This document shows, piece by piece, positions 1,320 to 48,651 of a stretch of 64,000 bases of DNA. Numbering within the stretch: the stretch's first letter is position 1; each line of letters opens with the position of its first letter. The DNA lies in IMG/VR virus record IMGVR_UViG_3300008117_003079, positions 30,187-94,186 of that record; one strand, 5' to 3'. Both the position numbers and the translations under genes were made by a program. The notes beneath the pieces were generated by a model, which saw nothing but the letters and a program-made list of their open reading frames with translations, ran no database searches and was not told the origin of the DNA. Source of the stretch: a virus.

Positions 1320-2515
1320 TTTCGTAAACCTTGTTCTTTATAAGTTACTGGTATTTTAATACCAGTATTACACCCATTACAATTATCACAAAATGTGATG
1401 TATCCAAGTTCGGTAAATCCCAAATCAAACTTAATTAAATCTTTGGGGTATACTTCTGATAAATTTACATAATCATTTTCGTTTGGTGAAAACAATTTAG
1501 TTAGAACTGCGCTTGTATTAAGGTGACAATAATAAAACTTGCCATCATTCAATCCTCTAAATGGAGCAGTGCAACTATCAAAGTGATTTATGAGTTCTTC
1601 TTCACTCATATTATTTTTAATTCTCAAATCACCAAAATCATACCACTCGATATTATTCCTTACATAGTGATTGATATTTTTCTCTTGGTAAGTTCCTAAA
1701 ACTCTATCAACTTTACTTTTTAATTTTTCTAATTTATTAGAGTAATTACTTACACTTAAAATAACATTATTATTTTTTAACACTTCTAGTATTTCTTCTT
1801 TTGGGAGGACTGTACCATTAGTGGTTATTATAAACTTATCAATCTTATCTGAATACTTTTCTAAAATGTATTCGATTACATCTTTGATATTTGGGTGTAA
1901 AAACGGCTCTCCACCAACTAAATGGAAAATACTTACATAATCAACAAGATTAAAATATAAGTCAATATCATTTAAGATAGTTTGAGTATCTCTGTGTTTT
2001 GGTAGTTCGTAATGTGGTATAAACATATTACAAAACGAACACGCCAAATTACATTTTTCAGTCACCAATACATCTGTTTGAAATATGTGAACCTTTTGTT
2101 TGTGTATAAATGGCCAAATAGATGCAATGTTTTTATACCAAGTATATTTTACATTTAGTTTATCTAAATATTCTTTATAGTATTGTCTATACTCATCTGA
2201 TGTGATAATTACATTTTCACCAGTTGGTTCAAAGTTATCTATATGAACTAATTTTAAATTCTCACGAGTGTTGACGAGGTTTTTTGATTGATGATAAAAT
2301 GAACTAATTTCGTTTACATTCAATATAGTTGATTCATCTTTAACATCGTGGTCAACTATGTATTTTATTTTTAAAACATTATTACCCAACAAATAATCTA
2401 CACTTCTAATAAATTGGACACACTCTTTACTTGCACCGAATAGAACATATTCGGTTTCAGTATCCCATTCTTGGATAAATTTCTCAAAATTATGTAGATT
2501 AGGATTATATTTCAT
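1316..2515 (-). CDS. Radical SAM protein with N-terminal Rossmann-like domain and C-terminal Cys cluster
   Basis: 399 residues. Residues about 20-60 (YVLFGASKECVQFI, then IKYIVDHD) look like a small nucleotide-binding Rossmann domain. The radical SAM core begins near residue 148 with CNLACSFC, the CxxxCxxC iron-sulfur motif at Cys155, Cys159 and Cys162, followed by HLVGGEPFLHP, which matches the GGEP SAM-binding motif. A second cluster, CDNCNGC near residue 375, suggests an auxiliary iron-sulfur cluster of SPASM or twitch type. It lies just downstream of the TPP enzyme in the sugar operon. Substrate unknown; a sugar nucleotide or a peptide are both possible. Confidence 0.85.
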   Translation of the reverse strand: MKYNPNLHNFEKFIQEWDTETEYVLFGASKECVQFIRSVDYLLGNNVLKIKYIVDHDVKDESTILNVNEISSFYHQSKNLVNTRENLKLVHIDNFEPTGENVIITSDEYRQYYKEYLDKLNVKYTWYKNIASIWPFIHKQKVHIFQTDVLVTEKCNLACSFCNMFIPHYELPKHRDTQTILNDIDLYFNLVDYVSIFHLVGGEPFLHPNIKDVIEYILEKYSDKIDKFIITTNGTVLPKEEILEVLKNNNVILSVSNYSNKLEKLKSKVDRVLGTYQEKNINHYVRNNIEWYDFGDLRIKNNMSEEELINHFDSCTAPFRGLNDGKFYYCHLNTSAVLTKLFSPNENDYVNLSEVYPKDLIKFDLGFTELGYITFCDNCNGCNTGIKIPVTYKEQGLRK

Positions 2516-2518
2516 ATA

Positions 2519-3148
2519 TTAAAATACTACCCATTTACCACTTCCGTAGTGCGGATACTTTGATTTATATTTGTAGTGAATTACATCGGATGGAATATCT
2601 TTCTTTTTATTCCAAGTTGCTTCCGTTGGTGTGTAAGTTGAAACATCATTATCTTCAACTATAAAATGTAAAGGTAAATCAAAATTTCTAGCGTATTTAT
2701 GAACTTCATAGAATATACCACTCTCAAAACTCATATCTCCTATAAATACCCAAACCTTTTCATCACTACCTTTGGCCTTAATTCCCATTGCTACACCCAA
2801 TGCAATAGAAAGAGTTCCACCTACAATTGCGGATGAATAAAACTTCTCATCTATCTTACAAAGAGTTATAGATTTACCATCAAGTATTTCATCGGTAATC
2901 CATTGTGGAGATATTCCTTTTAATAAAGCATGGTAGTGAGACCTCCAAGTTGAAAACACCCAATCGTTTTTAGATATTCTTTTGAATACCTCTATTAGTT
3001 GTTCTTCATTTCCGTTTGATAAGTGAATTGGTCCTCTGATTTTACCATCTTCCCAGTTTTGAACTATATCATTCTCAAACTGAATGAGTTCTTCTGCATT
3101 CCAATTATGTTCTCTAACTATTGGATATTGTTCTAAATTTTGTATCAT
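2519..3148 (-). CDS. Short thiamine-pyrophosphate enzyme, dehydrogenase E1-alpha/AcoA-like
   Basis: 209 residues, against roughly 320 or more for E1-alpha proteins. RSHYHALLKGISP (residues 69-81) matches the RxHxxxLxxG block of E1-alpha, GGTLSIALGVAMG (110-122) the next conserved block, and GDMSFESGIFYE (137-148) to EDND (165-168) is a TPP/Mg motif in which the usual GDG is GDM. The protein stops cleanly after GKWVVF, and no frameshifted remainder is seen before the next gene at 2515. No E1-beta partner is visible in the window. It overlaps the RmlC-like gene by 4 bases (ATGA), so it probably acts on a sugar or keto-acid intermediate. Activity uncertain because of the missing C-terminal third. 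Confidence 0.75.
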   Translation of the reverse strand: MIQNLEQYPIVREHNWNAEELIQFENDIVQNWEDGKIRGPIHLSNGNEEQLIEVFKRISKNDWVFSTWRSHYHALLKGISPQWITDEILDGKSITLCKIDEKFYSSAIVGGTLSIALGVAMGIKAKGSDEKVWVFIGDMSFESGIFYEVHKYARNFDLPLHFIVEDNDVSTYTPTEATWNKKKDIPSDVIHYKYKSKYPHYGSGKWVVF

Positions 3149-3681
3149 CTATCTCTTTTTTGTAGTATTGGATTGTTTGTTGGCCATTCCATTTGATATT
3201 CAGGGTCATTCCACTTTACCACACCTTGTTCATTTGCATCCACATAACCGTCTTTGTAAAATAAGTTATAGTGAAACATACAATCAGTTAATGCATAGTG
3301 TCCGTTTGCAAATCCTGGTGGAACTAATACCTGATTTCTTAATCTTTCCGTTATAATAAAACTTTCCCACTCCCCAAAGGTAGGACTATTTTCTCTCATA
3401 TCCAAAACAACTAAATAGATATCACCTACTGCTGCTTGTACCAATTTCCAAGTCTTTTTATCCCAGTGTAATCCTCTCAATACACCTTTATAAGAACGAG
3501 AGAATCTACCATGTACTTCACATTTGCCATCGATATAATCAACTATTGGGTGCTCAATTGAATGAAATGTTGTCCATATTTCACCTCTGTATTCTCTAAA
3601 TACGGATGGTTGAAATACTGGAACCTCATGTCCAAATTTTTTTGATGGAGTAATTTGAAACTCATCCCATTTACTACTCAT
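3145..3681 (-). CDS. rmlC: dTDP-4-dehydrorhamnose 3,5-epimerase-like cupin
   Basis: 178 residues, the usual RmlC length. GVLRGLHWD (residues 67-74) matches the RmlC RGLHYQ block carrying the catalytic His (His72). VPPGFANGHYAL (120-131) is the second cupin block, and the C-terminal VKWNDPEYQMEWP matches the 'WNDPxxxIxWP' end of the family. Tyr138 or Tyr142 would be the catalytic Tyr. Family members epimerise C3 and C5 of 4-keto-6-deoxy sugar nucleotides. It sits between an NAD-dependent epimerase (upstream by one base) and a TPP enzyme, which supports a deoxysugar pathway. The exact sugar cannot be read from sequence. Confidence 0.88.
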   Translation of the reverse strand: MSSKWDEFQITPSKKFGHEVPVFQPSVFREYRGEIWTTFHSIEHPIVDYIDGKCEVHGRFSRSYKGVLRGLHWDKKTWKLVQAAVGDIYLVVLDMRENSPTFGEWESFIITERLRNQVLVPPGFANGHYALTDCMFHYNLFYKDGYVDANEQGVVKWNDPEYQMEWPTNNPILQKRDR

Positions 3682-3682
3682 A

Positions 3683-4648
3683 TTATGTATTATTTGCGTA
3701 TCCTAAAGGAAATCCATTTCTAAATTCTGCTCCCATTTTTGGAACAATCATTTGGTATGCGTGAATTAATTCTTCGATACCTCTATCTAACCCCCACTCT
3801 GGTACCCATCCAGTTTCCTCTAGCTTTGCGTTAGAAACTATGTAATCCCTCTTATCGGGGTCTTCGTAATAATCGTTGTATGATACGGCAAAATCCTTTA
3901 CCTGGGATTGAATCTTTTCTAATAATTCTTGCTTTGAAAGATTGGCATTACTCAACCCTACATTAAATACTTGTCCTTTATATTTTTCGTAATTTATAAT
4001 CATAAATAAAAATGTAAATGCTACATCTTGAATATGAATAAAATTTCTCTTAAAGTTTTTCTCAAATACTACAATGTATTTATCAGTAATTGCTTTATAA
4101 ACAAAATCGTTTACCAATAAATCGGTTCTCATACGAGGTGATACACCAAATACAGTTGCCAATCTAAATGTAATTGCCGATGTGGTTGCTCTTAAAAAAG
4201 TTTCAGCATCACACTTTGTTTGTCCATACACTGATATAGGTGTTAAAGGTGAATCTTCGGTGCATTCAGTTTGTCCAACTCCAATACCATAACCACTATT
4301 TGTATTTGGATATAAAATTTTTTTATCCTTTGCAAATTTTACTATGTTACATATTTGGTCAAAATTGATTTCCCTTGCCAGCTTTGGGTCTGCTGCGCAA
4401 GCTGGGAACCCAACAATTGCAGCTAATGGAATTATTACATCAGCTTCATTACACAACTTTTCTAAAAGAGATTCATTACGAACATCTCCATATATGAATT
4501 TGAATTTAGGATTTGAAGTATATTGTAATAATGAGGTTTGATTAAATAATAGTTTATCCAATACTACTACCTTATAGTTTTGTTCCAATAACATACCAAC
4601 TAATACAGAACCCAAATAACCTGCACCACCTGTAATTAATACTTTCAT
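3683..4648 (-). CDS. NAD-dependent sugar-nucleotide epimerase/dehydratase (extended SDR)
   Basis: 321 residues, normal for the family. GGAGYLG at residues 7-13 is the NAD-binding GxxGxxG motif; YGDVR near 53 and PLAAIVG near 74 are further SDR blocks; SVYGQTK has the catalytic Tyr141 and Lys145 (YxxxK). Family members epimerise or dehydrate UDP-, GDP- or dTDP-sugars. It heads a short run with the RmlC-like and TPP genes, so it probably supplies the activated sugar consumed by the glycosyltransferases upstream in the same operon. Exact substrate not readable. Confidence 0.88.
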   Translation of the reverse strand: MKVLITGGAGYLGSVLVGMLLEQNYKVVVLDKLLFNQTSLLQYTSNPKFKFIYGDVRNESLLEKLCNEADVIIPLAAIVGFPACAADPKLAREINFDQICNIVKFAKDKKILYPNTNSGYGIGVGQTECTEDSPLTPISVYGQTKCDAETFLRATTSAITFRLATVFGVSPRMRTDLLVNDFVYKAITDKYIVVFEKNFKRNFIHIQDVAFTFLFMIINYEKYKGQVFNVGLSNANLSKQELLEKIQSQVKDFAVSYNDYYEDPDKRDYIVSNAKLEETGWVPEWGLDRGIEELIHAYQMIVPKMGAEFRNGFPLGYANNT

Positions 4649-4652: not shown

Positions 4653-5414
4653 TTAAAAATAAATGTTCTTTTCTATGTAAAATTGTGGATAGTTTCCACT
4701 AAAACTAACATCCCATACTTTATATCTATTGTAATGGTTAAAATCACATAAAAATGCAAAATTATTTCTATATGGATAATCGTAATTTAATTTTCGTAAA
4801 TCATTAAAAACTATATGTGAATACTGTTTTTCATAATTATCAATAAAATCTTGAATTTCTTCAATTTTTAATTTTTTGTTTAATACAAACGCCATTTCAA
4901 ATTCAAAATCTCCAATATGTTGATGTTCCTCTGGTCCAATCATACTACCACATCCGAACCAATAGAAAGAATTTTCGTATTTCACTTTTTCACCATCTTC
5001 AAATTCAATAATTCCTACCAACTTTCCATTTTTATAGCATTTAATATTTCTTTCCAAAAAATGGTCACAAATCATAGCGTACTCATTGAATTCATTAGTT
5101 TCTTCTGGTAATAATCCGGTAAAAATTTGTTTTGAATACATTTCTGTTTTACCATCTATTTCTTTTGAAAACCAATATGTAAATGCAATTGAAACAATTC
5201 CCAAATTATCTTTATAAGCAGAAATACCAGAATGCATTCCATTTCTGGCAATAGCAAATGATTCTTTATTTTGAGCTACAGTATCAGGAAATATTTTAAA
5301 CTTTAAGAATAAAGAAAAATCTTCATCCATATGTTTATCAATTCTAGATGATACGGAGTATCTACTTTCCGGCAAAACGAAAAATATATTATCTTTGTTT
5401 ACTCTTAAACTCAT
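4653..5414 (-). CDS. LamG/concanavalin-like domain protein
   Basis: 253 residues from ATG at 5414-5412, chosen because it forms an ATGA overlap with the stop of the upstream radical SAM gene; an in-frame ATG at 5432 would give 6 more residues and a 22-base overlap. The body alternates short beta-strand-like stretches with the 'IKCYKNGKLVGIIEFEDG' and 'GDFEFEMAFVLNKKLKIEEIQ' patterns seen in LamG sandwiches (strand with NG turn, then a 'xxxxAxxxxLxxxEI' end). The same pattern recurs inside the three galactosyltransferase-like genes upstream. Likely a carbohydrate-binding protein; partner of the adjacent radical SAM is conceivable but unproven. Confidence 0.55.
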   Translation of the reverse strand: MSLRVNKDNIFFVLPESRYSVSSRIDKHMDEDFSLFLKFKIFPDTVAQNKESFAIARNGMHSGISAYKDNLGIVSIAFTYWFSKEIDGKTEMYSKQIFTGLLPEETNEFNEYAMICDHFLERNIKCYKNGKLVGIIEFEDGEKVKYENSFYWFGCGSMIGPEEHQHIGDFEFEMAFVLNKKLKIEEIQDFIDNYEKQYSHIVFNDLRKLNYDYPYRNNFAFLCDFNHYNRYKVWDVSFSGNYPQFYIEKNIYF

Positions 5415-6826
5415 ATTTTTATTGTTGAACAAAAGTTATAAAATTCTTCTAATTCAGGAAATGTTTTACAAAAATCAGTTCCTCTACGTTTATCGTGGTT
5501 TGAAAAATATTGATAAAAACTATATCTATTTTTCATTTGTTGAGTCGCATCCTGTGGAGAAATCATCCAATCATAAATTCTTTTTACTTTTTGAACCTCA
5601 ACATCGGAGTAACCAATGTGTTTTGGGTCAAATGATGGAGCTGCGTAGTAAGTGATTAATTTAGCCTGGTCAGTTATATATTTAGCATAATCAAATGGAA
5701 GTACTTGGACAGTTTGATGTAAAGGGTATCGTAGATATGATGAATCTAAAAACACTGCAGAATTCCAATATCTATCAGTGGATGCGTATACATCTTTTAA
5801 TGTGTAAATATTATGAATTAATTGTTCATAATTAAAAACACTTAACGCATTATATGTCGACATGAATGTTATAATAGTTCTTGGGCATTTTGTAAGAATT
5901 TTATTTACATTATCCCAAAATTTATTAAATTCTAATCCAGTACGAATGTATTCTGCTTGCTCTCCCCATGTATCAACCGATGTAAATATGACAATTTCTT
6001 TTGCTCTACCTTCATCTTCTATTTTTTGTATCTTTTCGATTAATTTATCTATCAACTTATCTGGAACTCCCAAATTAGAATTAATAGCCAGTTTCAATTC
6101 AGTATTTGGATTTGGATGTTCTATGATATAATCAAGTACTCCCCAAGTATCTTTACTCATAAGAGGTTCTCCGCCTGTGATTCTAAATGTATGAAGGTCT
6201 CTATACAAATCAGGCCACCATTTCCAAAATGCTTCTACATATGGATTATGTTCTTTATTTGGAATTGGTAATTTATCTTCGTTTTTCATCCAATCAACGG
6301 AATTAAAATTATCCAAAGTTGGGTATGCACCATGCTTTTCAATTTCTTCCATCCACGCCGAACTATACGCAGGACCACAATATGAACATTTGAAATTACA
6401 CGCATTACTAAATGCAACTTCTACATATTTTGGATTAAAATCATCTCTCCAATCAGATTGAATAATGTCATTGATAAATGGATAAGACCAACTTTCACCA
6501 GATTTAAATATTCTATCCGAAAATCTATCCGAATTATCTTCTACATTCCAACAATAATCACATTCAGAAGGTCTTGCTCCCTGTAACATTTCCTTTCTAC
6601 GAAGTTTCTTATATCTCGTATTATGAAGTGCTGATGGGTTTCTAGCAATTTCAGTTTCTGAAATTTTATGTGTTTTGGGGTGGTGACATGAATGATTATG
6701 TCCACTTTGTAATTGTAGTGTAACTTGCGTCCATTTGGCAGCACACATACCAGGACCAACCACATTTAACTCGTCTTTAACGCGTAAATAAATTGGATTT
6801 TCACTATAAGTTTTATCTTCTGCCAT
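5411..6826 (-). CDS. Twitch-domain radical SAM protein
   Basis: 471 residues. The N-terminal 100 residues contain CHHP (47-50) and CDYCWNVED (89-97), a Cys-rich region typical of phage 'twitch' radical SAM proteins. The radical SAM motif CNFKCSYC gives Cys143, Cys147 and Cys150, followed by RITGGEPLMSKD, the GGEP motif. No C-terminal SPASM cluster is obvious. It lies between a LamG protein and a LamG-bearing galactosyltransferase. Family known from marine T4-like phages without an assigned substrate. Confidence 0.85.
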   Translation of the reverse strand: MAEDKTYSENPIYLRVKDELNVVGPGMCAAKWTQVTLQLQSGHNHSCHHPKTHKISETEIARNPSALHNTRYKKLRRKEMLQGARPSECDYCWNVEDNSDRFSDRIFKSGESWSYPFINDIIQSDWRDDFNPKYVEVAFSNACNFKCSYCGPAYSSAWMEEIEKHGAYPTLDNFNSVDWMKNEDKLPIPNKEHNPYVEAFWKWWPDLYRDLHTFRITGGEPLMSKDTWGVLDYIIEHPNPNTELKLAINSNLGVPDKLIDKLIEKIQKIEDEGRAKEIVIFTSVDTWGEQAEYIRTGLEFNKFWDNVNKILTKCPRTIITFMSTYNALSVFNYEQLIHNIYTLKDVYASTDRYWNSAVFLDSSYLRYPLHQTVQVLPFDYAKYITDQAKLITYYAAPSFDPKHIGYSDVEVQKVKRIYDWMISPQDATQQMKNRYSFYQYFSNHDKRRGTDFCKTFPELEEFYNFCSTIKI

Positions 6827-6830: not shown

Positions 6831-8297
6831 TTATTTTAAACAATGAACATTTATTAATTTGTGTTTATCAAAAATGATTTTAGTACTGATATGTTTATAC
6901 TTCATATTATTTATACCATCTTTTTTATAATCAATTTTACCTTGCTGCATTTCTAATACATATCTTCTTTCGTTTCTTGCAGTGGTTTCACCTTTAGCCC
7001 ATTTTTCAATACCACCTTCTTTAATTAAACCTTCAGTTTCATGTGGTAAACAGAAAAATTTACCATCTCTTCTATGTGGTAGTATTACATGGGGTATTTG
7101 TATTTCTCTTTCTTCAATACCAACATTATACAATACACCATCGTTTAATTCGGCCTGGTCTATTACAAATTTATCATCAACTATTTCATCAAAGTTATAG
7201 TGTAATACCAAACTATCGGTTGAATACTGCTTATGTAATAAATTAACTTCTTCACCAGTTAACGCTCTATCCCACATTTTAATATCAGCTATTTCACCTT
7301 TAAAAAATGCGTTTGGTTCAAATGGTTCAACCGTTGTCGTATGCCCTACATAAAATGGTTCATTTCCATATCGTTTTAAGTTATACTGATATTCAAACGG
7401 TGATTGCGTACCCGTTCCATTTCTAGCATCACTTTCATTTCCATTTAGATAAAAATGCATTTTCTTTTCCAAATCATCAATTACCATCGTAACCCACGTC
7501 CATTCTCCCTCATACCTTTTAAACCATTGGTAGATATGTTCTCTATGAGCATTCCATAACATACCAGTATATGCCCTACTATTGTTAAATGATAATCCCC
7601 AATCATAACCTGGTTTTCTGAATATAGGATATTCTACGAATTTTCTGTTTGAATCACCAATTAACCAAATAGGGACTTTTTCTATTTGTTGGTCTGCCTT
7701 TACTAATACAGAAATTGTATGTGAATTGGATATTGCTATTCTATTTTTTTCAGAAGATGGTATTTTGATGTATGAACTTTTACCATCAAATACTGCTACA
7801 TTTTTTACTTTAGCGAAATCAATAGTTTGTTTATTAACATATCCTTCCATCACACATCTCCAAAACAAATCATCATCTTCCATGCCCCAATCCCAATAAT
7901 CATTTGAATAACCATTGGTTGCTAAAACTTGCTCTTTTGTAAAAACAACCGCACCACCAAAGTATTCCTGATATTTTAATTGGTAATCCGATTGTGAGAT
8001 ACGAACTGCAATGTGTTGTGGATTTTCCATAGGATATGAATAATCACAACTATCATCTTCGGGTACCATATCAATATCATGCCAAACTATGTAATCACAT
8101 CCATCATCAATTGCATGTTTTGCAGCAATGTTTTTCATCAATCCTCTATTGAATAGATATTCATCACACTGATGTGCAATATAAATGGTGTGGTCAATTC
8201 CTTTCTTTGTTAAGAAATTAGTAACCCAAGGAACAAATTGATTCATATGTTCCTCTCTGTTTCTATATGGTACGCAGACCCCTAACTTATGCCCCAT
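6831..8297 (-). CDS. Beta-1,4-galactosyltransferase-like (GT7) with an internal LamG domain
   Basis: 488 residues. The first 155 follow the GT7 order: PYRNREEH (10-17), the FNRG block (49-52), HDIDMVP (73-79, the DxD metal motif), YFGG (112-115), and NGYSNDYWDWGMEDDD (128-143). The GT7 fold should continue, but about 240 residues of LamG-like sequence (YLNG turn near 283, FFKGEIADIKMWDRAL at 331-346) follow. The GT7 end then resumes with RNERR (441-445) and DGINNMKY (460-467), the counterpart of the family's DGLNSLTY. Thus the LamG is inserted inside the enzyme. Two paralogues follow downstream in the same operon. Donor and acceptor unknown; catalytic residues look intact. Confidence 0.85.
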   Translation of the reverse strand: MGHKLGVCVPYRNREEHMNQFVPWVTNFLTKKGIDHTIYIAHQCDEYLFNRGLMKNIAAKHAIDDGCDYIVWHDIDMVPEDDSCDYSYPMENPQHIAVRISQSDYQLKYQEYFGGAVVFTKEQVLATNGYSNDYWDWGMEDDDLFWRCVMEGYVNKQTIDFAKVKNVAVFDGKSSYIKIPSSEKNRIAISNSHTISVLVKADQQIEKVPIWLIGDSNRKFVEYPIFRKPGYDWGLSFNNSRAYTGMLWNAHREHIYQWFKRYEGEWTWVTMVIDDLEKKMHFYLNGNESDARNGTGTQSPFEYQYNLKRYGNEPFYVGHTTTVEPFEPNAFFKGEIADIKMWDRALTGEEVNLLHKQYSTDSLVLHYNFDEIVDDKFVIDQAELNDGVLYNVGIEEREIQIPHVILPHRRDGKFFCLPHETEGLIKEGGIEKWAKGETTARNERRYVLEMQQGKIDYKKDGINNMKYKHISTKIIFDKHKLINVHCLK

Positions 8298-8298
8298 T

Positions 8299-9729
8299 TT
8301 ACAATAATACTGATAGATGATGATAGTTATTCATTGATACATCATTTAATACCTGATATAAACAATTGTTTAAACCATCCTTATCTGTGTTATATAATTT
8401 AGTTTTAATTTGATTTAAAAATCTTAATTGGTTTATACGAGTTTCTCTATGAACCCAGTTTTTCTCATTCCAACTATTTGTTTTATGAGATAATAATTTA
8501 AATAAAGATTTTCTTCTATACGGAACCGTCATTTCTCTACCTAATGATTCATGTGATTTTATGAAATGGCAATTATTAATTTCACCATTATTACCGTTAA
8601 AAGATAAATCTAATAGAGTATTTTCTTTGTAGAATTTAAAATCATAATATAATTTTAAATGTTCCGCCGATTTATACGCTCTAAAATTTTCTAATAAAGA
8701 ATTTTCCAAAACATTATCTGCTAATATAGAAATTTCTTTATCTTTCAATTTACAATCGTATATTGCAAATTCAGAAATCATTCCATAAAAAAAGTTTGGG
8801 TTAGAATCCCTTTCAGGTGAACCAACGCCTAAATAAAAGTATTCTTCATCTGAATAATCCTTTGGAGCATTCTTTAGTTTTTCTGTACCTACTAATTCAC
8901 CATCTTTATAAAAAGAAATTTCATTTTTTTTATAATCAAAAGTTAAACAAATTTGAGTAAAATGATTAGTTAGTATTTCTGAATTAATAGAAGTGCAATC
9001 ATCGGTATCATCCCAAAAATCTACTTTATATCTTCTAAAAGAATTATAACTTATATTCGTATCGTATCCAGGTATTGAAAATACAGTATATTCATCATAA
9101 TCATTATTTGGATTTGATATTATTTCATCAGGTTTAAATGTAATTATTATTGATGTATCTTTTTCAAAATCTAATAAGTCTTTCTTTAGTATCCTGATGT
9201 AAGAATCATTTCCACTAAAAGATAACCCATATAATTTTTTGGTTTCATTTTTACCAATAATTTTTGAATCCAATGGAATGCTCTTTTGATTAACCCTAAA
9301 TAAAAGGTCATCATCTTCAAACCCCCATCCCCAATATAAATTAGAATATCCATTTACTCTTTCAAATGTATCAGAACTAAACATAGTTACACCTCCAAAA
9401 TAATCATCAAATGATAAGTTTTTGGATTTATCATATTCTAATTCAAAATTGGTTGCAAGGTGCATGGGTAATTCAGAATAAGAATAATCAACCTCAATTG
9501 GTAGCATATCCACATCGTGAAATACAATATATCCACATCCTAATTCTTTTGCTTTGATATACCCAATATTTAATAACTTCCCTCTATTAAACGGTTTATC
9601 ATCGGTCTGTTCAACTACGATAATCTCGTGTTTAATTTTTTTGGATTTTAAATATGAAGACATAGTTTCACCGAATCGTGCTAAATGCGATTCTCTATCT
9701 CTGTATGGTACAATTATTCCTAACTTCAT
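8299..9729 (-). CDS. Beta-1,4-galactosyltransferase-like (GT7) with an internal LamG domain, best-conserved copy
   Basis: 476 residues. The closest of the three to animal-type beta-1,4-galactosyltransferases: PYRDRESHL (8-16), VVEQ with FNRGKLLNIGY (47-57), FHDVDMLP (70-77), YFGGV (110-114), NGYSNLYWGWGFEDDD (126-141). LamG-like sequence spans about 165-395 (FYKDGELVG at 273-281; FFYGMISEFAIYDCKL at 313-328). GT7 C-terminus resumes with PYRRKSLF and ends DKDGLNNCLYQVLN (449-462), which matches DGLNSLTYQVLD. All metal and acid residues are present, so activity is likely. Start is 2 bases after the neighbouring stop. Confidence 0.88.
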   Translation of the reverse strand: MKLGIIVPYRDRESHLARFGETMSSYLKSKKIKHEIIVVEQTDDKPFNRGKLLNIGYIKAKELGCGYIVFHDVDMLPIEVDYSYSELPMHLATNFELEYDKSKNLSFDDYFGGVTMFSSDTFERVNGYSNLYWGWGFEDDDLLFRVNQKSIPLDSKIIGKNETKKLYGLSFSGNDSYIRILKKDLLDFEKDTSIIITFKPDEIISNPNNDYDEYTVFSIPGYDTNISYNSFRRYKVDFWDDTDDCTSINSEILTNHFTQICLTFDYKKNEISFYKDGELVGTEKLKNAPKDYSDEEYFYLGVGSPERDSNPNFFYGMISEFAIYDCKLKDKEISILADNVLENSLLENFRAYKSAEHLKLYYDFKFYKENTLLDLSFNGNNGEINNCHFIKSHESLGREMTVPYRRKSLFKLLSHKTNSWNEKNWVHRETRINQLRFLNQIKTKLYNTDKDGLNNCLYQVLNDVSMNNYHHLSVLL

Positions 9730-9734
9730 TTAGA

Positions 9735-10076
9735 TTATACTTTTTCTATATCTTTTTTAGGTCTTGCTCTACGAGGTGGCGGTAATTCTGCATCATTTTC
9801 AATTTGAGCAGGTTCGGTGGGAATACTTCCTTTAAAAGATGTTTCTGAACTAGATGATGACCCATTTTCTTTTGCAATGTTGTAGAATTCATAAAGATAA
9901 TACGCAACTCTATCACTCCATTCTGATTTGTTAATTTCTTCAAACCAAATAGTAAGTGCATCTAAAGAATTGGCAATTTTTTCCAATGCTTTAACTTTTC
10001 TAGTTTCCAATACTACCGATTCCAAATTTTGTTCAGGTGTAGTTGTTGTGTCAGATTGTAACTTAACTTTCGCCAT
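9735..10076 (-). CDS. Hypothetical protein between two galactosyltransferase paralogues
   Basis: 113 residues, not recognised. A helical middle (KALEKIANSLDALTIWFEEI, then a Trp/Tyr-rich helix around residues 50-70) is flanked by a Thr/Ser-rich N-terminus and a Ser run followed by an acidic, Pro-rich tail that ends RRARPKKDIEKV. It fits exactly between two GT7-LamG genes (5-6 base gaps), so it is probably co-transcribed with them. No membrane segment or signal peptide. Function unknown. Confidence 0.75.
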   Translation of the reverse strand: MAKVKLQSDTTTTPEQNLESVVLETRKVKALEKIANSLDALTIWFEEINKSEWSDRVAYYLYEFYNIAKENGSSSSSETSFKGSIPTEPAQIENDAELPPPRRARPKKDIEKV

Positions 10077-10082
10077 TTATTT

Positions 10083-11540
10083 TTATATTTTAATTTGATG
10101 CTTATAAACTCCTGTTTTAATTTCTTCTGTTGATACTAAATCATATGATAATGTATTTAATCCAAATTTATCAGTATCTAATATATCAGTTGCAATTTCA
10201 TAAAAGAAAATACCTTCATTTTCTTCAAAAATATCATCTTTTACTTTCCAACTATAATTTTGTAATTTAGTGAATTTTTTTGAATTTTCCAAGATTTGAA
10301 ACCGTCCATTTGATTGTTCTGGCATATCAAATTCATAAGACAGGTTTAATTGTTCAGAATACAATTCCTGATGTAACCCAGTTGATACTATTCTTGGATT
10401 TGAAAATGTTTTAGAATCATCTACATAAAAATCTCCAAACTTTTTATCAAATGGTACATTTATAACTGCTTCAAAATTTGTAGTTATTGTATCATTTATT
10501 GTTTTATACCCATCGGTGTATAGTTTTAATATTTCGGATTCTGCCAATGGGTAATCGAATAATAATAGGTTAGATATTTTGCCATTAAATGAATTTTTAA
10601 ATGCCAAACTACCAATCCACAAATCTTTTCCTTTAAAGTCCATTAAATAATTTGGTAATCCATCCAGTGCTTGTACAAGTTTGCCATCAATGTATAGACC
10701 GGCTTTTTTCTTATCCATATCAACCTTTAATGACAGGTTTATCCATTGATTGACATGTGCTTTGTGTGAATACCACATTTGATGTAAACTCTTATTATCA
10801 TCCCACAATTGAACTACAATTGCATCGTTTTTCATAATAAAAATTCCCATATCATAACCTTGTTTCCCAATAATACACGCATCGTTTGATTGATTATCGT
10901 TAATGAAAACATTCATTGATATTGTAAATGAATCTTCAAAAATATAATCGGTTGTTTTGCTTGCTCTTATAAACACACAATTATTTTCATTTGAATCAAA
11001 AGGATATATTGTTTTTTTAATATATTTATTTACCTCTTTTACATCTGTTAAAACATGCGGTTTATATATATTTTTAGTAAAAAATCTCTTTGCAGATAAT
11101 AATTTGTGTTTTTTTAATCTATATAAGAAATCTATCCAATGAAAAGAACCTCCCCAATAATCGTTACTGAACCCGTTTGCTTCGAAGAAATTTTCTTTTG
11201 TAATTTTAAAAGCTCCGCCTATCCAATGAGGATACGGTTTTAAATTTGCGGCTAAATGTGTTGGGTAGTATTCAAAATCATAATTACACGATTCTTGTCT
11301 TGGTAGAATATCAATATCGTGGAATATATAATAATCGGAACGATTTTGTGTTATATCCGCACCAATATTACACAGTTTTCCATAATTAAAATAAACATCC
11401 GCATCTATTTGTTCGATGAAATGTATTTCGTAATCTATTTTATCTTTTAAAAAGTATTCCATGTGACCCACAAAGGTATACAGGTCTTGTAAACGATTGG
11501 AGTACGGTACTATAATTGATAACTTTTTACTATTCGCCAT
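10083..11540 (-). CDS. GT7-LamG paralogue with altered catalytic motif
   Basis: 485 residues with the same architecture as the two downstream paralogues. GT7 blocks: VPYSNR (11-16), FIEQ (41-44), FNYGKLCNIG (51-60), FHDIDILP (73-80), WIGGAF (106-111), NGFSNDYWGG (122-131). The family's WGWGxEDDD is replaced here by WGGSFHWID, so the EDDD acidic cluster is lost. LamG follows (LYIDGKLVQAL near residue 285; FNGKISNLLLFDYPL near 330), then the GT7 end with FGLNTLSYDLV. The change suggests a non-catalytic, binding-only or altered-specificity protein. It begins 14 bases after the upstream gene's stop. Confidence 0.8.
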   Translation of the reverse strand: MANSKKLSIIVPYSNRLQDLYTFVGHMEYFLKDKIDYEIHFIEQIDADVYFNYGKLCNIGADITQNRSDYYIFHDIDILPRQESCNYDFEYYPTHLAANLKPYPHWIGGAFKITKENFFEANGFSNDYWGGSFHWIDFLYRLKKHKLLSAKRFFTKNIYKPHVLTDVKEVNKYIKKTIYPFDSNENNCVFIRASKTTDYIFEDSFTISMNVFINDNQSNDACIIGKQGYDMGIFIMKNDAIVVQLWDDNKSLHQMWYSHKAHVNQWINLSLKVDMDKKKAGLYIDGKLVQALDGLPNYLMDFKGKDLWIGSLAFKNSFNGKISNLLLFDYPLAESEILKLYTDGYKTINDTITTNFEAVINVPFDKKFGDFYVDDSKTFSNPRIVSTGLHQELYSEQLNLSYEFDMPEQSNGRFQILENSKKFTKLQNYSWKVKDDIFEENEGIFFYEIATDILDTDKFGLNTLSYDLVSTEEIKTGVYKHQIKI

Positions 11541-11554: not shown

Positions 11555-12403
11555 TTATATAGATATAATTTTTTTAAATAATTGTTTCCATTTTGAGTAT
11601 CCTGAATAATGATAAGTTGGTGATAATTCGAATCCAAATCTCACATCATCCAATGGTAATTTAAATCTAAATTTTGCCAATTCTCTATACATTTTTCGAT
11701 ATTCTTCTGAATATGAGTAATCTTTATTTATGTTTGCAACTGCTCTAATTCTTTCTCCACAAGTACTATCCCATTTAAAATGATGTACTTGCACACTGCA
11801 TTTGTTAATTGGTGCAATCAGTGGATGATTCCAACCTTGCCATTTCCAAGTAGTATGTCCGTCTATTTTTGCATAATGCTGTCCGTTTGTAATTTCAACA
11901 TACCCCTTTGCTATACAAATTTTATTAGGATTAGCACCACTTAACGGAAATCTAAAAAATCCTGCGTATGGAAACTTTTCAAATATGTCATCCGTATCTA
12001 ATAATTCAACAAATTCACCATCCTCTCCAATTCTATCTATAAATCCACCTCTTACCATTTCCCATCCATTTACATCACAATTTGATGTGATACTTCGTAA
12101 TGAATCCGAATAGACATGGAACTCATCATCATCGGATATTACCCACCAATCGTTTGGATGAGTTGATTTTACTTCATTGTAAAGTCTTGTTACCTTTTCC
12201 CAATTATACTTCTCTTCAATTACCGTTTTTACAATTTTAGCATTTGGAAATTGAGATACTATGGTTTTAACTTCTGATAAATTAGATTGCTCTTCCCAAT
12301 CATATACAACAATATACATTTCATCCACTTTATCTTTGTAGTGGTTTAACATATGTTTTAATGTTGTTGTTCTAGAACCTGTTACCGTAACTAATCTAAT
12401 CAT
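11555..12403 (-). CDS. GT-A-type glycosyltransferase-like protein
   Basis: 282 residues. The N-terminus MIRLVTVTGSRTTTLKHML and the later WWVISDDDEFHVY (acidic DDDE metal motif near residue 95) fit a GT-A nucleotide-diphospho-sugar fold. His-containing stretches NGQHYAKIDGH and VQVHHFKWD near residues 170 and 207 are reminiscent of phage GT2-like or DUF glycosyltransferases. It overlaps the upstream methyltransferase by 4 bases and precedes the GT7-LamG genes, which supports a role in the same glycan. Donor unknown. Confidence 0.65.
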   Translation of the reverse strand: MIRLVTVTGSRTTTLKHMLNHYKDKVDEMYIVVYDWEEQSNLSEVKTIVSQFPNAKIVKTVIEEKYNWEKVTRLYNEVKSTHPNDWWVISDDDEFHVYSDSLRSITSNCDVNGWEMVRGGFIDRIGEDGEFVELLDTDDIFEKFPYAGFFRFPLSGANPNKICIAKGYVEITNGQHYAKIDGHTTWKWQGWNHPLIAPINKCSVQVHHFKWDSTCGERIRAVANINKDYSYSEEYRKMYRELAKFRFKLPLDDVRFGFELSPTYHYSGYSKWKQLFKKIISI

Positions 12404-13158
12404 TTTCTTTTAACTAATGTTAATCCAGTTGATGATGGTTTATTTTTTACTATTCCAAAATTGAATAAATCAAATGTTTCCCACTTTGGATTATCTTTAA
12501 GTTCTTTAGCAAATGTAATTGGTCCATGCCAATCATCAAAATCACCTCTATCTTTTACTTCGTTTGTAACAATGTAACTATCTGCATAATTAGGGTCCGT
12601 ATCGTGGATAGAAATGATACCATTTGGAGAAAGTAACTGCGAATATAGTTCAAAATCCTCTTTTACATTCTCATAACTATGACCAGCATCTATATGTAAA
12701 TAATCTATCTGAATATCATTAAGAATAAAGTAATTATGAAAAGCGTCTTCTGTTGTTTTATTAATAATTCGTGGATGAAATGTTCTTCTGAAAAATGATT
12801 CTTCTCTAAACCAATTTACATGTCCACCAATACCGTTCATAGCATCAACAACATAAGTAACACCAATATCTCCCCAATTTAAATCAGAATTTCCTTCAAA
12901 AATGCCTTGTTTATGTAAATCGTAACGAGCCTGTGTCATTAATCTAGGTACAAATCCTCCACCTGAACCTAAACATACACAAGTTTTTGCTCTCATATAC
13001 TGAATAAGAGAATAGATTATTAAACCATCTCCTAAATGATTATCAGTTGCTCCATGTGACCATCTATACGGAACTGGAACTTCTTCTTGCTCCTGATATT
13101 CGTTATATTCTAAATTGTTTGTTAGATAATTCTTTAAGTATTGTAAATCTTGTAGCAT
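12400..13158 (-). CDS. SAM-dependent methyltransferase (Methyltransf_24/TylF-like)
   Basis: 252 residues. CVCLGSGGGFVPRLM (near residues 56-70) is a class I methyltransferase SAM-binding glycine loop, and the block IDYLHIDAGHSYENVKED followed by GIISIHDTDP is the typical C-terminal half of the Methyltransf_24 family. Such enzymes often methylate sugars in surface glycans. It is first in its operon: a TTG-N20-TATATTGT promoter lies in the 62-base gap upstream (13186-13216). Sugar O-methylation is inferred from neighbours. Confidence 0.82.
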   Translation of the reverse strand: MLQDLQYLKNYLTNNLEYNEYQEQEEVPVPYRWSHGATDNHLGDGLIIYSLIQYMRAKTCVCLGSGGGFVPRLMTQARYDLHKQGIFEGNSDLNWGDIGVTYVVDAMNGIGGHVNWFREESFFRRTFHPRIINKTTEDAFHNYFILNDIQIDYLHIDAGHSYENVKEDFELYSQLLSPNGIISIHDTDPNYADSYIVTNEVKDRGDFDDWHGPITFAKELKDNPKWETFDLFNFGIVKNKPSSTGLTLVKRK

Positions 13159-23988: not shown

Positions 23989-24698
23989 TCCTCGTGTGAG
24001 TAGAATGATACTATATTATATTTAATATCATTCTTTACTTTTTCAACTTCATGGAATAAATTTTTATCAGAATCTAATACTACAAAATTAGGAAAAATTG
24101 GATTTACTTTAATATCATTTCCATTTAAATCATGTAATATCAAATGCCCACCGTTTGATTCACCCCATTCATTATTTAAAAAATACAAAAATACACATAT
24201 TCTGTTGTTAGGTTGTCCATCATCGTGTAATTTTATTTCGCAACCTTCATTGTAAAATTGCAGTTTTGTATTTTCAGTAAATCTACCAAACGATTTTTCA
24301 GGATAGTATTTTTTTACAAAGTTTTTTTGAAAATTTCTTAATACTTCATTGTTTATTTTTCCATTTATTTCTGAATTCATAGAGGTACCAAATACCCAAG
24401 TTGGATAAAATCCACATTCTTCAATTTTTTTCAATTGATATTGATGTGCTTTATTATAAACATAATCGGCAGTATTTAAATCTTTATCATTTTTTAAATA
24501 CCCATCATACACCAATTCTTCCATATATGATTGGTCGTTGTATTTAAACCAATAATCATATCTAGAATGTCTTACAAAATTTGTATTATCTATATAATCT
24601 TTTATTTGTTTAAACCCATCTAAATCGATTAGTTCGGAATAATCTTCCAACTTACCGTAAATGTATCCACTATTTCTGTAATTTTCTATACTTTCCAT
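23985..24698 (-). CDS. 2-oxoglutarate/Fe(II) oxygenase, prolyl-4-hydroxylase type
   Basis: 237 residues. KLHDDG (157-161) gives His158 and Asp160, and FHEVEK gives His216, together the HxD...H iron triad. The residue that usually binds 2-oxoglutarate (Arg) is Lys226 in IKYNIVSFY, which is seen in other family members. GGHLILHDLNG fits the double-stranded beta-helix. It shares one base with the SbcCD fusion start (TAATG). Target not known; three more members lie at 56363-57893, and the collagen-like fibre is a candidate. Confidence 0.8.
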   Translation of the reverse strand: MESIENYRNSGYIYGKLEDYSELIDLDGFKQIKDYIDNTNFVRHSRYDYWFKYNDQSYMEELVYDGYLKNDKDLNTADYVYNKAHQYQLKKIEECGFYPTWVFGTSMNSEINGKINNEVLRNFQKNFVKKYYPEKSFGRFTENTKLQFYNEGCEIKLHDDGQPNNRICVFLYFLNNEWGESNGGHLILHDLNGNDIKVNPIFPNFVVLDSDKNLFHEVEKVKNDIKYNIVSFYSHED

Positions 24699-27600
24699 TA
24701 GAAATTAATTTTACTATATCCATTTTCTTTTTTAATTTCAATCAATCCATCTACTATATCTCTCATTTGTTCTAAATGGGAAATTATCCATATAAAATCA
24801 AATTGAGTTTTAAGATATTGCATCATCATAAATAGTGATGATAAATTATCTGAATCCAATGTGCCAAATCCTTCATCGATTACCAAAAAATTTGGACGAG
24901 GTAAGTTACACACATTGATAAGAGCAACTCTAATTGCCAATCCACTAACAAATTTTTCCATACCACTACACATCTCCAATGGCCATTCTTGGTCATCATA
25001 AACAATTTTGGCATTGATTGATTTTCCATCCATCTCCATCGTAACTCCAAAATCAACTACTTGTGCCAAAATATTATTTACCTCATTCTCAATTACAGGT
25101 AATGCTTTTGAAATTAACTCATATGGGATTCCATCTCTCTTTACTGAATCCAAATAATAGGTATACAGGCGGTTCTTTTCTTCCAATGCCTTAACATCAT
25201 TCATCTTCTGTTTTATGTCCTCTATAAACGAAGATATGGATGTAATAGAACCATTTAAATTTGTTATATCTTTATTTAATTTACTAATATCATTTGCAAT
25301 AGTATTTTTTGCTTTATTTAATTCAGAAATTTCACTTTCTATTTCTTTATTTCTAGAAATAGTATCTTCATTTTCATAATACTTATCTATATTTTCATCA
25401 ATTGTATCTAATTGATTTTGTAATAATTGTTCTTTAGTTTTTAAAGCACTTAATTCTATTTGTGTTTTTTCTAAAATAATTTTACTTCTAGAGTATTTGT
25501 TTTTTAGTTCATTCCACTCATTATATTGCTCTTCAACTCCATTTAAGGAATCTAAAACACAATTGATTGCAGCAACTTCATTAAAAGTATGCTCTACTGA
25601 TATTTGCAATCCTTCTAAATCTGATTTTGCTTTTACTGCATCTTTCACAAATTCATTATCACAACAGAATTTACAATTAGGGTCATATTGGTGATTATTT
25701 AAATGTCCAATCTTTTCTTCAGCTACTTCTAATTGTTGTTTTGCTTTTTGGTATACTTTTTCTGCTTCAACTAAATCTTTGGATTGTTTTACAAAATCGT
25801 TATGAGCAATTTCTATATCAACTTCATTGTCATCTATTGTGAATTTACATTTTTCAAATAGGGATTGTGAAACTTCGGTAAGTAAAATTTTATGTTGTTC
25901 AATTTTACTTTCTTTTAATTCATAATCAGTTTCTGCATCTTCAATCTGTTTCGATATAGAGTTTCTTTTTGATTCTAATAAAGATAAATCAAGATTAGAA
26001 TCAATTGGAGTTAATTCTCTACTTAAATTTACAATTTTATCATTTAATTCACTTACTTCCGTATTTTTATCACTTAATAATACTTCTAATCCCTTTAATT
26101 GTGATTTTTTTTCCAATAATTCCTTACCCTTTTCGGCAAGTTCTGTTGTAAAATCTGTTTTCTTAAAGTTTTTAATCAATACGGAAACTTCTCTAATATC
26201 TTCAGTTGCAGTATCATATAGTTTATCAAAAATAGTTAAACCCATAAATTGTGCAAGAAGGTCTTTCCTTTCTGATTGTGATTTATCAATAAAAAGGGCA
26301 TTATTACCTTGCAGTGATAGTGCAGTTAGTACAAAATCTTCATATTTTCCAACATATTGTTCAATAATTTGGTTTGTATCTCTTCTTTCGGTTCCATTTA
26401 GTGATGTTTTAGTATCACCATCTTGTCTCCAAAATTGAACATCTACTTTTACATTTTTTCCTTTGTTAATCGTTTTAGCAGTTCTCTGAATACCATATTC
26501 TACCCCATCTATTTGAAAATATAGTGTACAATCAAAATCCGTTTTACGATTATTTAAGATATTAGATGCTTTATATGCTCTACTACTCTTATCATATAAA
26601 CAAAACGATACTGCATCAAATAAAGAAGATTTGCCCGCTGCATTTGGGGCAAATAATCCAACTAATCCGTTTAATTTTGTAAAATCAATTTTGTTACTTT
26701 CTCCATAACTAAACATATTTGAAAACTCAAAACGAATTGGTTTCCATTGAATGTTGCGTTGGATGTCATCTTGAACGATTCTACTATTTATATCTCTGTT
26801 AATCAATTCTAGCCCTTTTAAATCTTCAGGAACTACAAAAGGCATCATTCTCTCAATATACTCATTTATAAGTGAGTTTTGATAATTGATGTCTGAAATA
26901 TCTTCAAAGTCTAATTTGTTTAATCTATCACCTGTTTTAGATTTAGAAAGGGAATCGGTTCTAATAATTGTAAAATCCTCAACACCATATCTCATTTTAA
27001 TTTCAGCCATTACTCTTTTAGTATCAGCGGAATCGGTATTAGATAAACGAACTCTCAAACGAGGTTTCTTTGGCATATCGGATACGATAGGAACTTTCCC
27101 ATTATCAATATCCATAGTATAATACCCATAATCGTTTTGGATATCAACTGCTTCGTAAGTAAAAGTATCCAAATCCCAAACGAGGAACCCATGTTTATCT
27201 AGGGTTTCACCAAAGTTTTGTTGAATAAGAGAACCAGCATAGACAACCTTACAACCTTTTGGAGAAATCATCTCTTGTCGTTTGTGAATATCACCTAATA
27301 AGGCTAAATCGTATCCATCAAACATATCAGTTGTAAAATGACGAGATGAAACGGTGTATCCAATATCTGTTTGAGAATTATCAACTGGCCCGTGAAATAA
27401 AGCAATCTTTTTGTTTCCAAATATAGTATTTGCTTTTGGCCAATTTGCTTTATTATCAAAGATACTGAATACCGCAAAATCTATTCCACCAATACCATAC
27501 ACTTGAGTATCTTTGAGATATGTAAAGTTTGGTAAGTTTAAAGCATCTACAATTGGAGTAAGAACATCCAATCTATCAGAGTTATTCATATTACAATCGT

Positions 27601-27856
27601 GATTACCTGTAATAAGGATTGTTTCACAATGTTTAGAACACTCCGTAAATAACCAACTAATCTCCCTAACTAATTCAGGAGATAATTCTAATTTAGCATG
27701 AGCAATATCACCTGCTAAATAAATGATTGAATCATCCGTACCTCTTTTACGAATCTCCTCAAACATCTTTTCAAAAACCTGTCTGTACTCATTGTGTCTT
27801 TTCACATTACGGATGTGTATATCTGCAATATGATAAATCTTTTTCAATCTACTCAT
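24698..27856 (-). CDS. Fused Mre11-Rad50 (gp47-gp46/SbcD-SbcC) recombination nuclease
   Basis: 1052 residues in one frame. Residues 1-345 are the Mre11/SbcD nuclease: ADIHIR (11-16), YLAGDIAH (46-53), ITGNHD (82-87), then LFHGPV and LLGDIH. From about 370 the Rad50/SbcC ATPase follows: FAPNAAGKSSLFD (Walker A), a long coiled coil, CKFC zinc hook near 728, a second coil, CSGMEKFVSG (signature) near 965 and FLVIDEGFGTLD (Walker B) near 990. In T4 these are two genes of 339 and 560 residues. It joins recombination and replication in a complex with the nearby primase. The fusion is continuous with no stop or frameshift. Confidence 0.92.
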   Translation of the reverse strand: MSRLKKIYHIADIHIRNVKRHNEYRQVFEKMFEEIRKRGTDDSIIYLAGDIAHAKLELSPELVREISWLFTECSKHCETILITGNHDCNMNNSDRLDVLTPIVDALNLPNFTYLKDTQVYGIGGIDFAVFSIFDNKANWPKANTIFGNKKIALFHGPVDNSQTDIGYTVSSRHFTTDMFDGYDLALLGDIHKRQEMISPKGCKVVYAGSLIQQNFGETLDKHGFLVWDLDTFTYEAVDIQNDYGYYTMDIDNGKVPIVSDMPKKPRLRVRLSNTDSADTKRVMAEIKMRYGVEDFTIIRTDSLSKSKTGDRLNKLDFEDISDINYQNSLINEYIERMMPFVVPEDLKGLELINRDINSRIVQDDIQRNIQWKPIRFEFSNMFSYGESNKIDFTKLNGLVGLFAPNAAGKSSLFDAVSFCLYDKSSRAYKASNILNNRKTDFDCTLYFQIDGVEYGIQRTAKTINKGKNVKVDVQFWRQDGDTKTSLNGTERRDTNQIIEQYVGKYEDFVLTALSLQGNNALFIDKSQSERKDLLAQFMGLTIFDKLYDTATEDIREVSVLIKNFKKTDFTTELAEKGKELLEKKSQLKGLEVLLSDKNTEVSELNDKIVNLSRELTPIDSNLDLSLLESKRNSISKQIEDAETDYELKESKIEQHKILLTEVSQSLFEKCKFTIDDNEVDIEIAHNDFVKQSKDLVEAEKVYQKAKQQLEVAEEKIGHLNNHQYDPNCKFCCDNEFVKDAVKAKSDLEGLQISVEHTFNEVAAINCVLDSLNGVEEQYNEWNELKNKYSRSKIILEKTQIELSALKTKEQLLQNQLDTIDENIDKYYENEDTISRNKEIESEISELNKAKNTIANDISKLNKDITNLNGSITSISSFIEDIKQKMNDVKALEEKNRLYTYYLDSVKRDGIPYELISKALPVIENEVNNILAQVVDFGVTMEMDGKSINAKIVYDDQEWPLEMCSGMEKFVSGLAIRVALINVCNLPRPNFLVIDEGFGTLDSDNLSSLFMMMQYLKTQFDFIWIISHLEQMRDIVDGLIEIKKENGYSKINF

Positions 27857-46953: not shown

Positions 46954-48651
46954 TTATATCTTACTTATTATGTAATTACCAATAACTAAATAATCCATAT
47001 CACAATTTTTAAATGTGTTAACCGCAGTGTACGGGTCATTAACCATTGTTTGTCCTCTTAAATTAAAAGATGTATTCAATAGTATAGGTGTTCCACTTAC
47101 TTTTTCAAATGCTTTTAACAATTCATAATACAGAGGATTTTGTTGACTTTTTACCGTTTGAATTCGTGCACTATTATCTACATGAGTTACGGATGGGATT
47201 GGTATTTCGGAAATTACTTGTACAACCTGATTCATGTATGGAACATCTTCTTCTGATTTAAAGTATTGTTGATAATCTTCGTGAGTTACGGATGGAGCAA
47301 ATGGTCTAAACATTTCCCTCTTTTTGACAACCTTATTTATCCTATCTCTAACATCTGGTAAATGTGGATTGGCTAAAATAGAACGATTACCTAATGCTCT
47401 TGCACCGAATTCAGTTCTACCTTGAAACCATCCTATGATATTACCTTCATTGATTAACTCTGCGGTTTTATTTAATAACTCATCTGAATTTTTATAGTAT
47501 TTAAACGATATATCTCCGATTCTATCTATAATGTTTAATACATATTCTTTACTAAATTCGGGTCCTAAATATGGGGATTGGTTATCACCACCTTTTACTT
47601 TAGGATTTCCAATTACATCATGCCACACATATAAACATGCTCCAATTGCAGAACCCGCATCAGATGGTGCGTATGGAATCCAAACATTTTTTATTGCACA
47701 ATGTTTTTTTATTTTACCATTAGCAGTTCCATTATATGCACATCCTCCACCTAATACTAAATTTGAATTATCGGAATGACTGCATGAGTTATTGATAATA
47801 TAATACAAACATCTCTCATACCATCGTTGTAAAGCAGCAGCTAAATCCATATGATGTTGTTCTAATTTAGATTCAGGTTCACGTGGTTCAAATCCTATCA
47901 ATTTAACCAAATCCAATGTAAACATATCCGTATTAGAATACTCCCATGTAAAATACTTCTGATTTATATCAACCAAATTAACAGTATCCAATGATGCGAA
48001 TGTATCAAATAATTCGTTATATTTTGAAGAATCTCCGTATGGAGCCAATCCCATTACTTTGTACTCACCACTATTTGGTTTAAATCCCAAATATGAAGTT
48101 ATAGTTGAATATATTAATCCCAATGAATTTGGGAATTTGACTGTTTTAATTTCAATAATACCATTTGAATTACATTCTGCAATGGATATGGTATCCCATT
48201 CACCAACCCCATCAATTGAAATTCCAATAGCTTTATCAAAAGGTGAGGTATAAAAAGATAAAGCCAAATGAGATAAGTGATGTTTTGTAAATGTAATTAC
48301 TCCATCGTATCCAATAGCATCTTTTATATATTTTTTTAAATTACCTTGAGTTGCTTTAAATTCTTTTTTAAATTTATTCCAAGTTTTGAAATACTTAATC
48401 CATCTCTTTCCTAATGTCTTACTAACTCTATCATATTTGATATTTGGTACTTCATACCAACACACCATATCAACTTCATCTATTGTAATTTGTGCATGAG
48501 ATAGACATGCTTCTATGGCCTTAAACGGAAAAGAGTTGTCGTGCTTTATACCCGACAACTTCTCTTCTTCTATTGCAAATACTACCTTACCATCTATAAC
48601 TAATGCCGCAGCTGAATCGTGGTAAAATGCTGATAATCCTAATTGAATCAT
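46954..48651 (-). CDS. Carbamoyltransferase, NodU/TobZ family
   Basis: 565 residues, normal for the family. MIQLGLSAFYHDSAAALVIDG (1-21) starts the YrdC-like/ASKHA half, with GISIDGVGEWDT near 135; LGGGCAYN near 300 and GWFQGRTEFGARALGNRSIL near 400 to 420 are the family's hallmarks, and the C-terminus has FRPFAPSV. It transfers carbamoyl from carbamoyl phosphate to a sugar. In this phage it may decorate the glycan produced by the sugar island. It stands downstream of the sigma-like gene (4-base gap). Confidence 0.9.
   Translation of the reverse strand: MIQLGLSAFYHDSAAALVIDGKVVFAIEEEKLSGIKHDNSFPFKAIEACLSHAQITIDEVDMVCWYEVPNIKYDRVSKTLGKRWIKYFKTWNKFKKEFKATQGNLKKYIKDAIGYDGVITFTKHHLSHLALSFYTSPFDKAIGISIDGVGEWDTISIAECNSNGIIEIKTVKFPNSLGLIYSTITSYLGFKPNSGEYKVMGLAPYGDSSKYNELFDTFASLDTVNLVDINQKYFTWEYSNTDMFTLDLVKLIGFEPREPESKLEQHHMDLAAALQRWYERCLYYIINNSCSHSDNSNLVLGGGCAYNGTANGKIKKHCAIKNVWIPYAPSDAGSAIGACLYVWHDVIGNPKVKGGDNQSPYLGPEFSKEYVLNIIDRIGDISFKYYKNSDELLNKTAELINEGNIIGWFQGRTEFGARALGNRSILANPHLPDVRDRINKVVKKREMFRPFAPSVTHEDYQQYFKSEEDVPYMNQVVQVISEIPIPSVTHVDNSARIQTVKSQQNPLYYELLKAFEKVSGTPILLNTSFNLRGQTMVNDPYTAVNTFKNCDMDYLVIGNYIISKI

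Follow-up and report, generated by a model that had tools for sequence, protein, structure and literature searches.

Three adjacent GT7–LamG genes

The window, by which we mean the whole 64,000-nucleotide stretch that was analysed, lies within a 94,186-base uncultured virus record and carries three adjacent open reading frames on the minus strand, which we name q1 (6831–8297, 488 aa), q2 (8299–9729, 476 aa) and q3 (10083–11540, 485 aa). The q1 and q3 products share 32% and 29% identity, respectively, with q2, and in all three the Pfam matches fall in the same order: Glyco_transf_7N, a truncated Glyco_transf_7C and Laminin_G_3. The Glyco_transf_7C match stops at model position 60 or 59 of 78 in q1 and q2 and at position 43 of 78 in q3; q1 and q2 exceed the curated cut-offs for both 7N and 7C, and q3 exceeds that for 7N but lies 0.5 bit below that for 7C.

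In q1 the N-terminal catalytic half (aa 1–153; 7839–8297, minus strand as for all segments below) carries PYRNR, FNRG, HDID, YFGG and WDWGMEDDD (Pfam 7N E 7.3e-19, 7C E 2.3e-18; 152 columns aligned with B4GALT1 at 35% identity and rmsd 1.4). It is followed by an inserted segment (aa 154–406; 7080–7838), missing from continuous GT7s, which contains Laminin_G_3 at 171–352 (E 1.4e-13) between long strands at 155–171 and 393–406 in the AlphaFold2 secondary structure, and then by the C-terminal half (aa 407–488; 6834–7079), recognized from alignments and profile matches, with PxRRxGxFxxLPH, including H419 at the metal site, and DGIN. The q2 protein is built likewise from an N-terminal half (aa 1–151; 9277–9729; PYRDR, FNRG, HDVD, YFGG and WGWGFEDDD; 7N E 1.2e-19, 7C E 4.1e-17), an inserted segment (aa 152–402; 8524–9276; LamG 173–334, E 2e-13) whose boundaries come from alignment to q1, and a C-terminal half with PYRRxxLFKLLSH and DGLNNCLYQVL (aa 403–476; 8302–8523; alignments and profile matches). 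In q3 the N-terminal half (aa 1–147; 11100–11540; 7N E 4e-14, 7C E 9.1e-5, just under the cut-off) precedes an inserted segment (aa 148–406; 10323–11099; LamG 202–337, E 8e-12) and a C-terminal half, placed by alignment and the AlphaFold2 model, that includes FGLNTLSYDL (aa 407–485; 10086–10322). The LamG assignment rests on structural matches to the jelly-roll fold as well as on the Laminin_G_3 profile. A preliminary description put the LamG-like sequence at about 230–240 residues; with the connecting strands the whole inserted segment comes to about 250 (154–406 in q1).

Across 80 q1/q2 sequences (q1 numbering) the invariant residues of the N-terminal half include R51, H73, D74, D76, Y112–G115, W137, G138, E140, D141 and D143, and past the insert P407, R409, H419, N442 and G461 are invariant, with D460 nearly so; within LamG only three glycines are. 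From what is known of B4GALT1 we take the invariant GT7 residues to be donor, metal and acceptor residues, H419 presumably being a metal ligand, and on the same grounds we assume that the YFGG tyrosine favours UDP-Gal, which would be the predicted donor for q1 and q2. The DxD and YFGG motifs are present in all 95 q1 and all 90 q2 proteins, and a literal EDDD in 95/95 q1, 77/90 q2 and 0/34 q3 proteins. Both q1 and q2 have the C-terminal histidine and the DGLN end, aligned to human B4GALT1 (PDB 2ae7) and to bacterial GT7s. The motif series given in the preliminary description therefore stands for q1 and q2, which retain every catalytic motif, but not for the q3 of the window, in which HDID is retained while YFGG is replaced by WIGG, EDDD is lost (GGSFHWID in place of WGWGxEDDD) and the histidine at the metal position is substituted. 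Other q3-type proteins retain ExDLD and the histidine. Judged from these substitutions the window q3 is probably not an active GT7 and would be no more than a relative that binds acceptor or has a regulatory role; because it looks catalytically degenerate, the earlier count of three enzymes overstates what this genome encodes.

The LamG domain and the GT7 fold

Profiles were built separately for the N half (aa 1–155), LamG (166–395) and the C half (400–488) from 80 viral relatives of q1/q2. The C-half profile alone matches continuous bacterial GT7s immediately after their N part, with a best E of 1.5e-8 (in locus L194, N half 2–161 and C half 165–227; in L209, N half 10–174 and C half 177–244), and continuous GT7s of about 243–250 aa were also found in a second phage set (L232–L294). 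Like the phage proteins, these continuous bacterial (L173, L184, L194 and L209) and viral GT7s have the core followed by the end of the helix, RRxGxFxxLxH and DGL, but their insertion site is empty, whereas in the GT7–LamG proteins the order is EDDD...EG, insert, PHRRDGKFFCLPH...DGIN. The two GT7 halves are separated by a median of 244 residues (208–279) in 295 LamG-bearing proteins versus a median of 4 in proteins without a LamG match, where the four other gaps of about 255 residues belong to q3-type proteins in which LamG falls under the threshold. The continuous catalytic domain that characterizes the GT7 family is thus interrupted here, and the insertion is a variation inside the GT7 fold with no catalytic part missing.

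These data also bear on the reading that two unrelated domains are simply joined in series and that the GT7 likeness of the C-terminal end is due to chance. It would be consistent with the local Foldseek alignments of q1 with B4GALT1, which end at about 152 residues, and with the alignment of the 80-sequence family profile to human B4GALT1, in which the first part (residues 2–154) is matched with an E of 5.5e-47 but the second (profile 425–472, aligned in order to 2ae7 chain residues 237–282, which include DGLNSLTYQVL) is weak by itself. Against this, the C-terminal profile on its own picks out continuous GT7s from dozens of bacteria, its match lying exactly behind their N part, the RRxGxFxxLxH and DGLN motifs are held in common in the same order, and the median gap is 4 residues in one class and 244 in the other, so that tandem domains are refuted, a chance or misread C-terminal end is ruled out and the series arrangement is left with a very small probability.

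AlphaFold2 models of q1 (mean pLDDT 94.4, pTM 0.87) and q3 (mean pLDDT 91.6, pTM 0.82) are confident and, together with the sequences and the empty-site homologues of bacteria and phages, bear out the earlier claim of a single insertion point in the GT7 fold. DSSP places the long strands 155–171 and 393–406 at the bounds of LamG in q1, and on this model we read them as a probable two-strand stalk. By Foldseek the GT7 part superimposes on B4GALT1 and B4GALT7 across about 152 residues with an rmsd near 1.2–2.2; the LamG part, searched separately, matches pentraxin-type folds and a putative carbohydrate-binding protein, the pentraxin likeness (about 14% identity) being at fold level only. Among the best listed matches in the BFVD viral models, no structure spans the whole protein and only separate GT7 or LamG matches occur.

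Distribution, cassette and linked small protein

A database search for GT7 proteins with a nested LamG, as the preliminary description had proposed, found the architecture in well over 100 uncultured viral contigs with two to three copies per genome. Relatives numbered 178 in one viral scan and 174 in another; the best 80 of each, nearly all full length, were kept, many contigs being in both lists. Each of 19 large records (83–289 kb) has two to three GT7 copies, all but two of them in open frames of 431–509 aa. No match to q1 or q2 was obtained in 50,697 GenBank phage records (tblastn, 1e-5), and no paper naming a GT7 with a nested LamG was found in the literature library searched. The full-length cellular matches, from one-per-species genomes, amount to four loci on MAG contigs; the phage cassette described below is present at three of these, for which reason a cellular origin of the architecture was rejected, and the contig at the remaining one (L165) is too short to judge. 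In 396 and 399 genomes of two bacterial phyla (those behind L201 and L194) there was no full-length match, at most four candidates per genome having been scored in the first scan, and a Parachlamydiaceae GT7 used as query returned no viral relatives. In a tree made without the LamG columns, a single clade of LamG-bearing proteins is not rejected (the tree constrained to that clade scored 4.2 log units above the unconstrained tree, AU p = 0.59), and therefore the simplest account from the sequences may be one insertion, predating the split of the three copies and followed by duplication, an account compatible with the tree though unproven by the test.

The genes lie in a conserved order: a glycosyltransferase-like gene, Methyltransf_24, a GT2-like gene, q3 (not always present), a small gene (p113), q2, q1 and a radical SAM gene, often followed by genes for a stand-alone LamG protein, an NAD epimerase, an RmlC-like epimerase and a TPP-enzyme half. 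In the window, the methyltransferase is at 12400–13158 (Pfam Methyltransf_24 E 2.9e-12; 28/32 loci), the GT2-like glycosyltransferase upstream of q3 at 11555–12403 (Glyco_tranf_2_4 E 2.2e-4, below the cut-off; 30/32 loci) and the radical SAM protein immediately downstream of q1 at 5411–6826 (Pfam E 2.6e-7; 30/32 loci), all on the minus strand. The stand-alone LamG-like protein (4653–5432, minus strand) was missed by Pfam but is matched among the window ORFs by the GT7–LamG insert profile (E 1e-7) and has syntenic homologues. The TPP-dependent enzyme half of this sugar cassette (2519–3148, minus strand) is a 209-aa E1_dh/transketolase-like protein. The cassette of the window comes after an S74-type fibre gene.

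Between q3 and q2 lies p113 (9735–10076, minus strand), a small conserved protein of 63–113 aa across relatives, in which a core of about 45 residues (ERKVKALEKIANSLDALTIWFEEIDKxEWSDRIQYYLxEFHN) hardly varies and by eye is more conserved than the enzymes. It adjoins q2 in 90/90 cases with enough upstream sequence, either within 16 bases or overlapping by up to 103 bases, these overlaps being upper bounds because the ORF starts were set mechanically. With p113 as the query, a GT7–LamG ORF follows at 77/77 loci with enough sequence; the two sets share many contigs, so the counts are not independent, and no exception was seen. No Pfam match was found for p113 and a PDB search gave a non-significant match only. 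The linkage of p113 to q2 is new here, and its simplest reading makes p113 a candidate dedicated partner of q2.

A tail sheath gene is present in one relative (L314), and therefore the GT7–LamG genomes appear to be those of contractile-tailed phages. LamG also occurs elsewhere in the same genomes, in a protein of 550–586 aa beside the sheath gene, in large proteins of about 1,600 aa and in a two-LamG protein that matches a virion-structural family. The tail-region LamG protein near the sheath gene is at 2006–3733 (minus strand) in L312, 1379–3139 in L314 and 1352–3013 in L315 (553–586 aa); in the L312 protein a block that by eye resembles the Hint/intein type (CLLFGTKI...SHNKG) stands ahead of the C-terminal LamG, Pfam detecting LamG only. 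Other minus-strand genes of the window include that for a 765-aa protein (58655–60952) with two Hint/intein-type modules toward its C-terminus (about 454–582 and 623–759), one for a single 1052-aa polypeptide (24698–27856) in which a calcineurin-like phosphoesterase precedes an SMC/AAA_23 ATPase and which looks like a fused SbcD–SbcC (T4 gp47–gp46-like), and host-type genes for a Nol-like carbamoyltransferase (46954–48651), a peptide deformylase (49592–50239) and a UvdE UV-endonuclease (50787–51686).

Possible function and comparison with known systems

The reading that we favour, by a modest degree of confidence, is that q1 and q2 are cytosolic metal-dependent hexosyl-, probably galactosyltransferases of a glycan-building cassette, in which the nested LamG most likely binds the acceptor. 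They would be phage-encoded, inverting enzymes of the GT7 (beta-1,4-galactosyltransferase) type, in whose core FNR, DxD, YFGG, EDDD and the C-terminal histidine are the predicted contacts to the UDP-sugar; neither q1 nor q2 showed a signal or a membrane segment. LamG would have been inserted once, into the turn between the helix after EDDD and the strand toward the metal-binding histidine, and from its two-strand stalk at that turn it may recognize the growing acceptor glycan or glycoprotein, bring it to the active site and give each paralogue its own acceptor preference. With the GT2-like transferase, the methyltransferase, the radical SAM protein and often the sugar epimerases, these enzymes may build a phage-specified glycan whose target would be virion proteins or else a host-surface precursor.

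That LamG holds the acceptor glycan, as had been suggested in the preliminary description, is plausible by likeness to lectin-assisted glycosyltransferases, and acceptor binding is the most likely role because the insertion is shortly before the metal histidine, a variable lectin sits on a constant core, the LamGs of the paralogues are divergent and there are precedents for lectin modules. The mean majority fraction in q1 is 0.55 for the inserted segment versus 0.78 for the catalytic core; the greater variability of the insert is expected of a specificity domain, and relaxed constraint also fits. LamG folds bind proteins as well as sugars, and it is conceivable, at an appreciably lower probability, that LamG is instead a module for docking to the tail fibre, the baseplate or a cassette protein, with no binding of acceptor sugar, in which case the enzyme would modify the virion as it is assembled, or be carried with it. 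The sheath-neighbouring, two-LamG and approximately 1,600-aa proteins and the position of the cassette after the fibre gene are consistent with docking. No virion-targeting signal was found, however, and of the LamG-bearing proteins examined from the tail region a single one was matched by the profile of the enzyme LamG, so that they are not close copies of it; the virion-bound enzyme offered in the preliminary description as an alternative lacks direct support and is at most conceivable, though these phages do carry LamG in other proteins, one of them with a virion-family match.

Pentraxins are ring oligomers. As they are among the best solved relatives of the insert, and as the few invariant LamG residues are mostly glycines, LamG could also be mainly a structural or oligomerization module that makes the enzyme multivalent and has no specific ligand, but with a resemblance confined to the fold we consider this about as improbable as docking. 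Returning to acceptor binding, an extended form of it that we put forward tentatively, and regard as rather less likely than the general reading, is that q2 and p113 together form an obligate two-component glycosyltransferase in an undescribed virus-specific glycosylation system, in which LamG would read the acceptor glycan and p113 would be a dedicated subunit, either a specificity or activation factor or a glycan-carrying protein. Alpha-lactalbumin, a specificity and activation factor for B4GALT1, would be a model for such a role of p113.

Among known systems, B4GALT1 and B4GALT7 (CAZy GT7; PDB 2ae7 and 4irq) share with q1 and q2 the GT7 motifs in order, about 35% identity across the initial 152 residues and the DGLN end, but in them the EDDD helix, the metal-binding strand and the DGLN end are contiguous and there is no inserted domain. 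Animal B4GALTs are Golgi membrane proteins, whereas the phage GT7–LamG proteins are predicted to be soluble. The LamG jelly-roll fold is shared with stand-alone Laminin_G_3 and pentraxin-like proteins, where it does not interrupt an enzyme. When a lectin domain steers a glycosyltransferase, the two usually follow one another in series. The LacdiNAc synthases B4GALNT3/4, although animal enzymes, likewise have, beside a catalytic part of GT7 type, a beta-sheet module (PA14) that putatively binds glycans and that B4GALNT3 requires for activity (PMC11254600). Non-catalytic sugar-binding modules are known to tune transferases, and the polypeptide GalNAc-transferases (GT27) and GnT-IVa are GT-A transferases in which the tuning is done by a lectin domain that, unlike the LamG described here, is C-terminal, in series and of ricin-type or CBM32-like fold (PMC4432651, PMC9296478). 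In the phage GT7–LamG proteins a lectin-like domain interrupts the catalytic fold a short way ahead of the metal-binding histidine, and since ordinary GT7s are natural empty-site controls, deletion would be a way to test the effect of the nested lectin. The cassette for glycan building that this architecture marks in large uncultured phages is missing from reference phage genomes, and the small protein p113 is strictly linked to the architecture.
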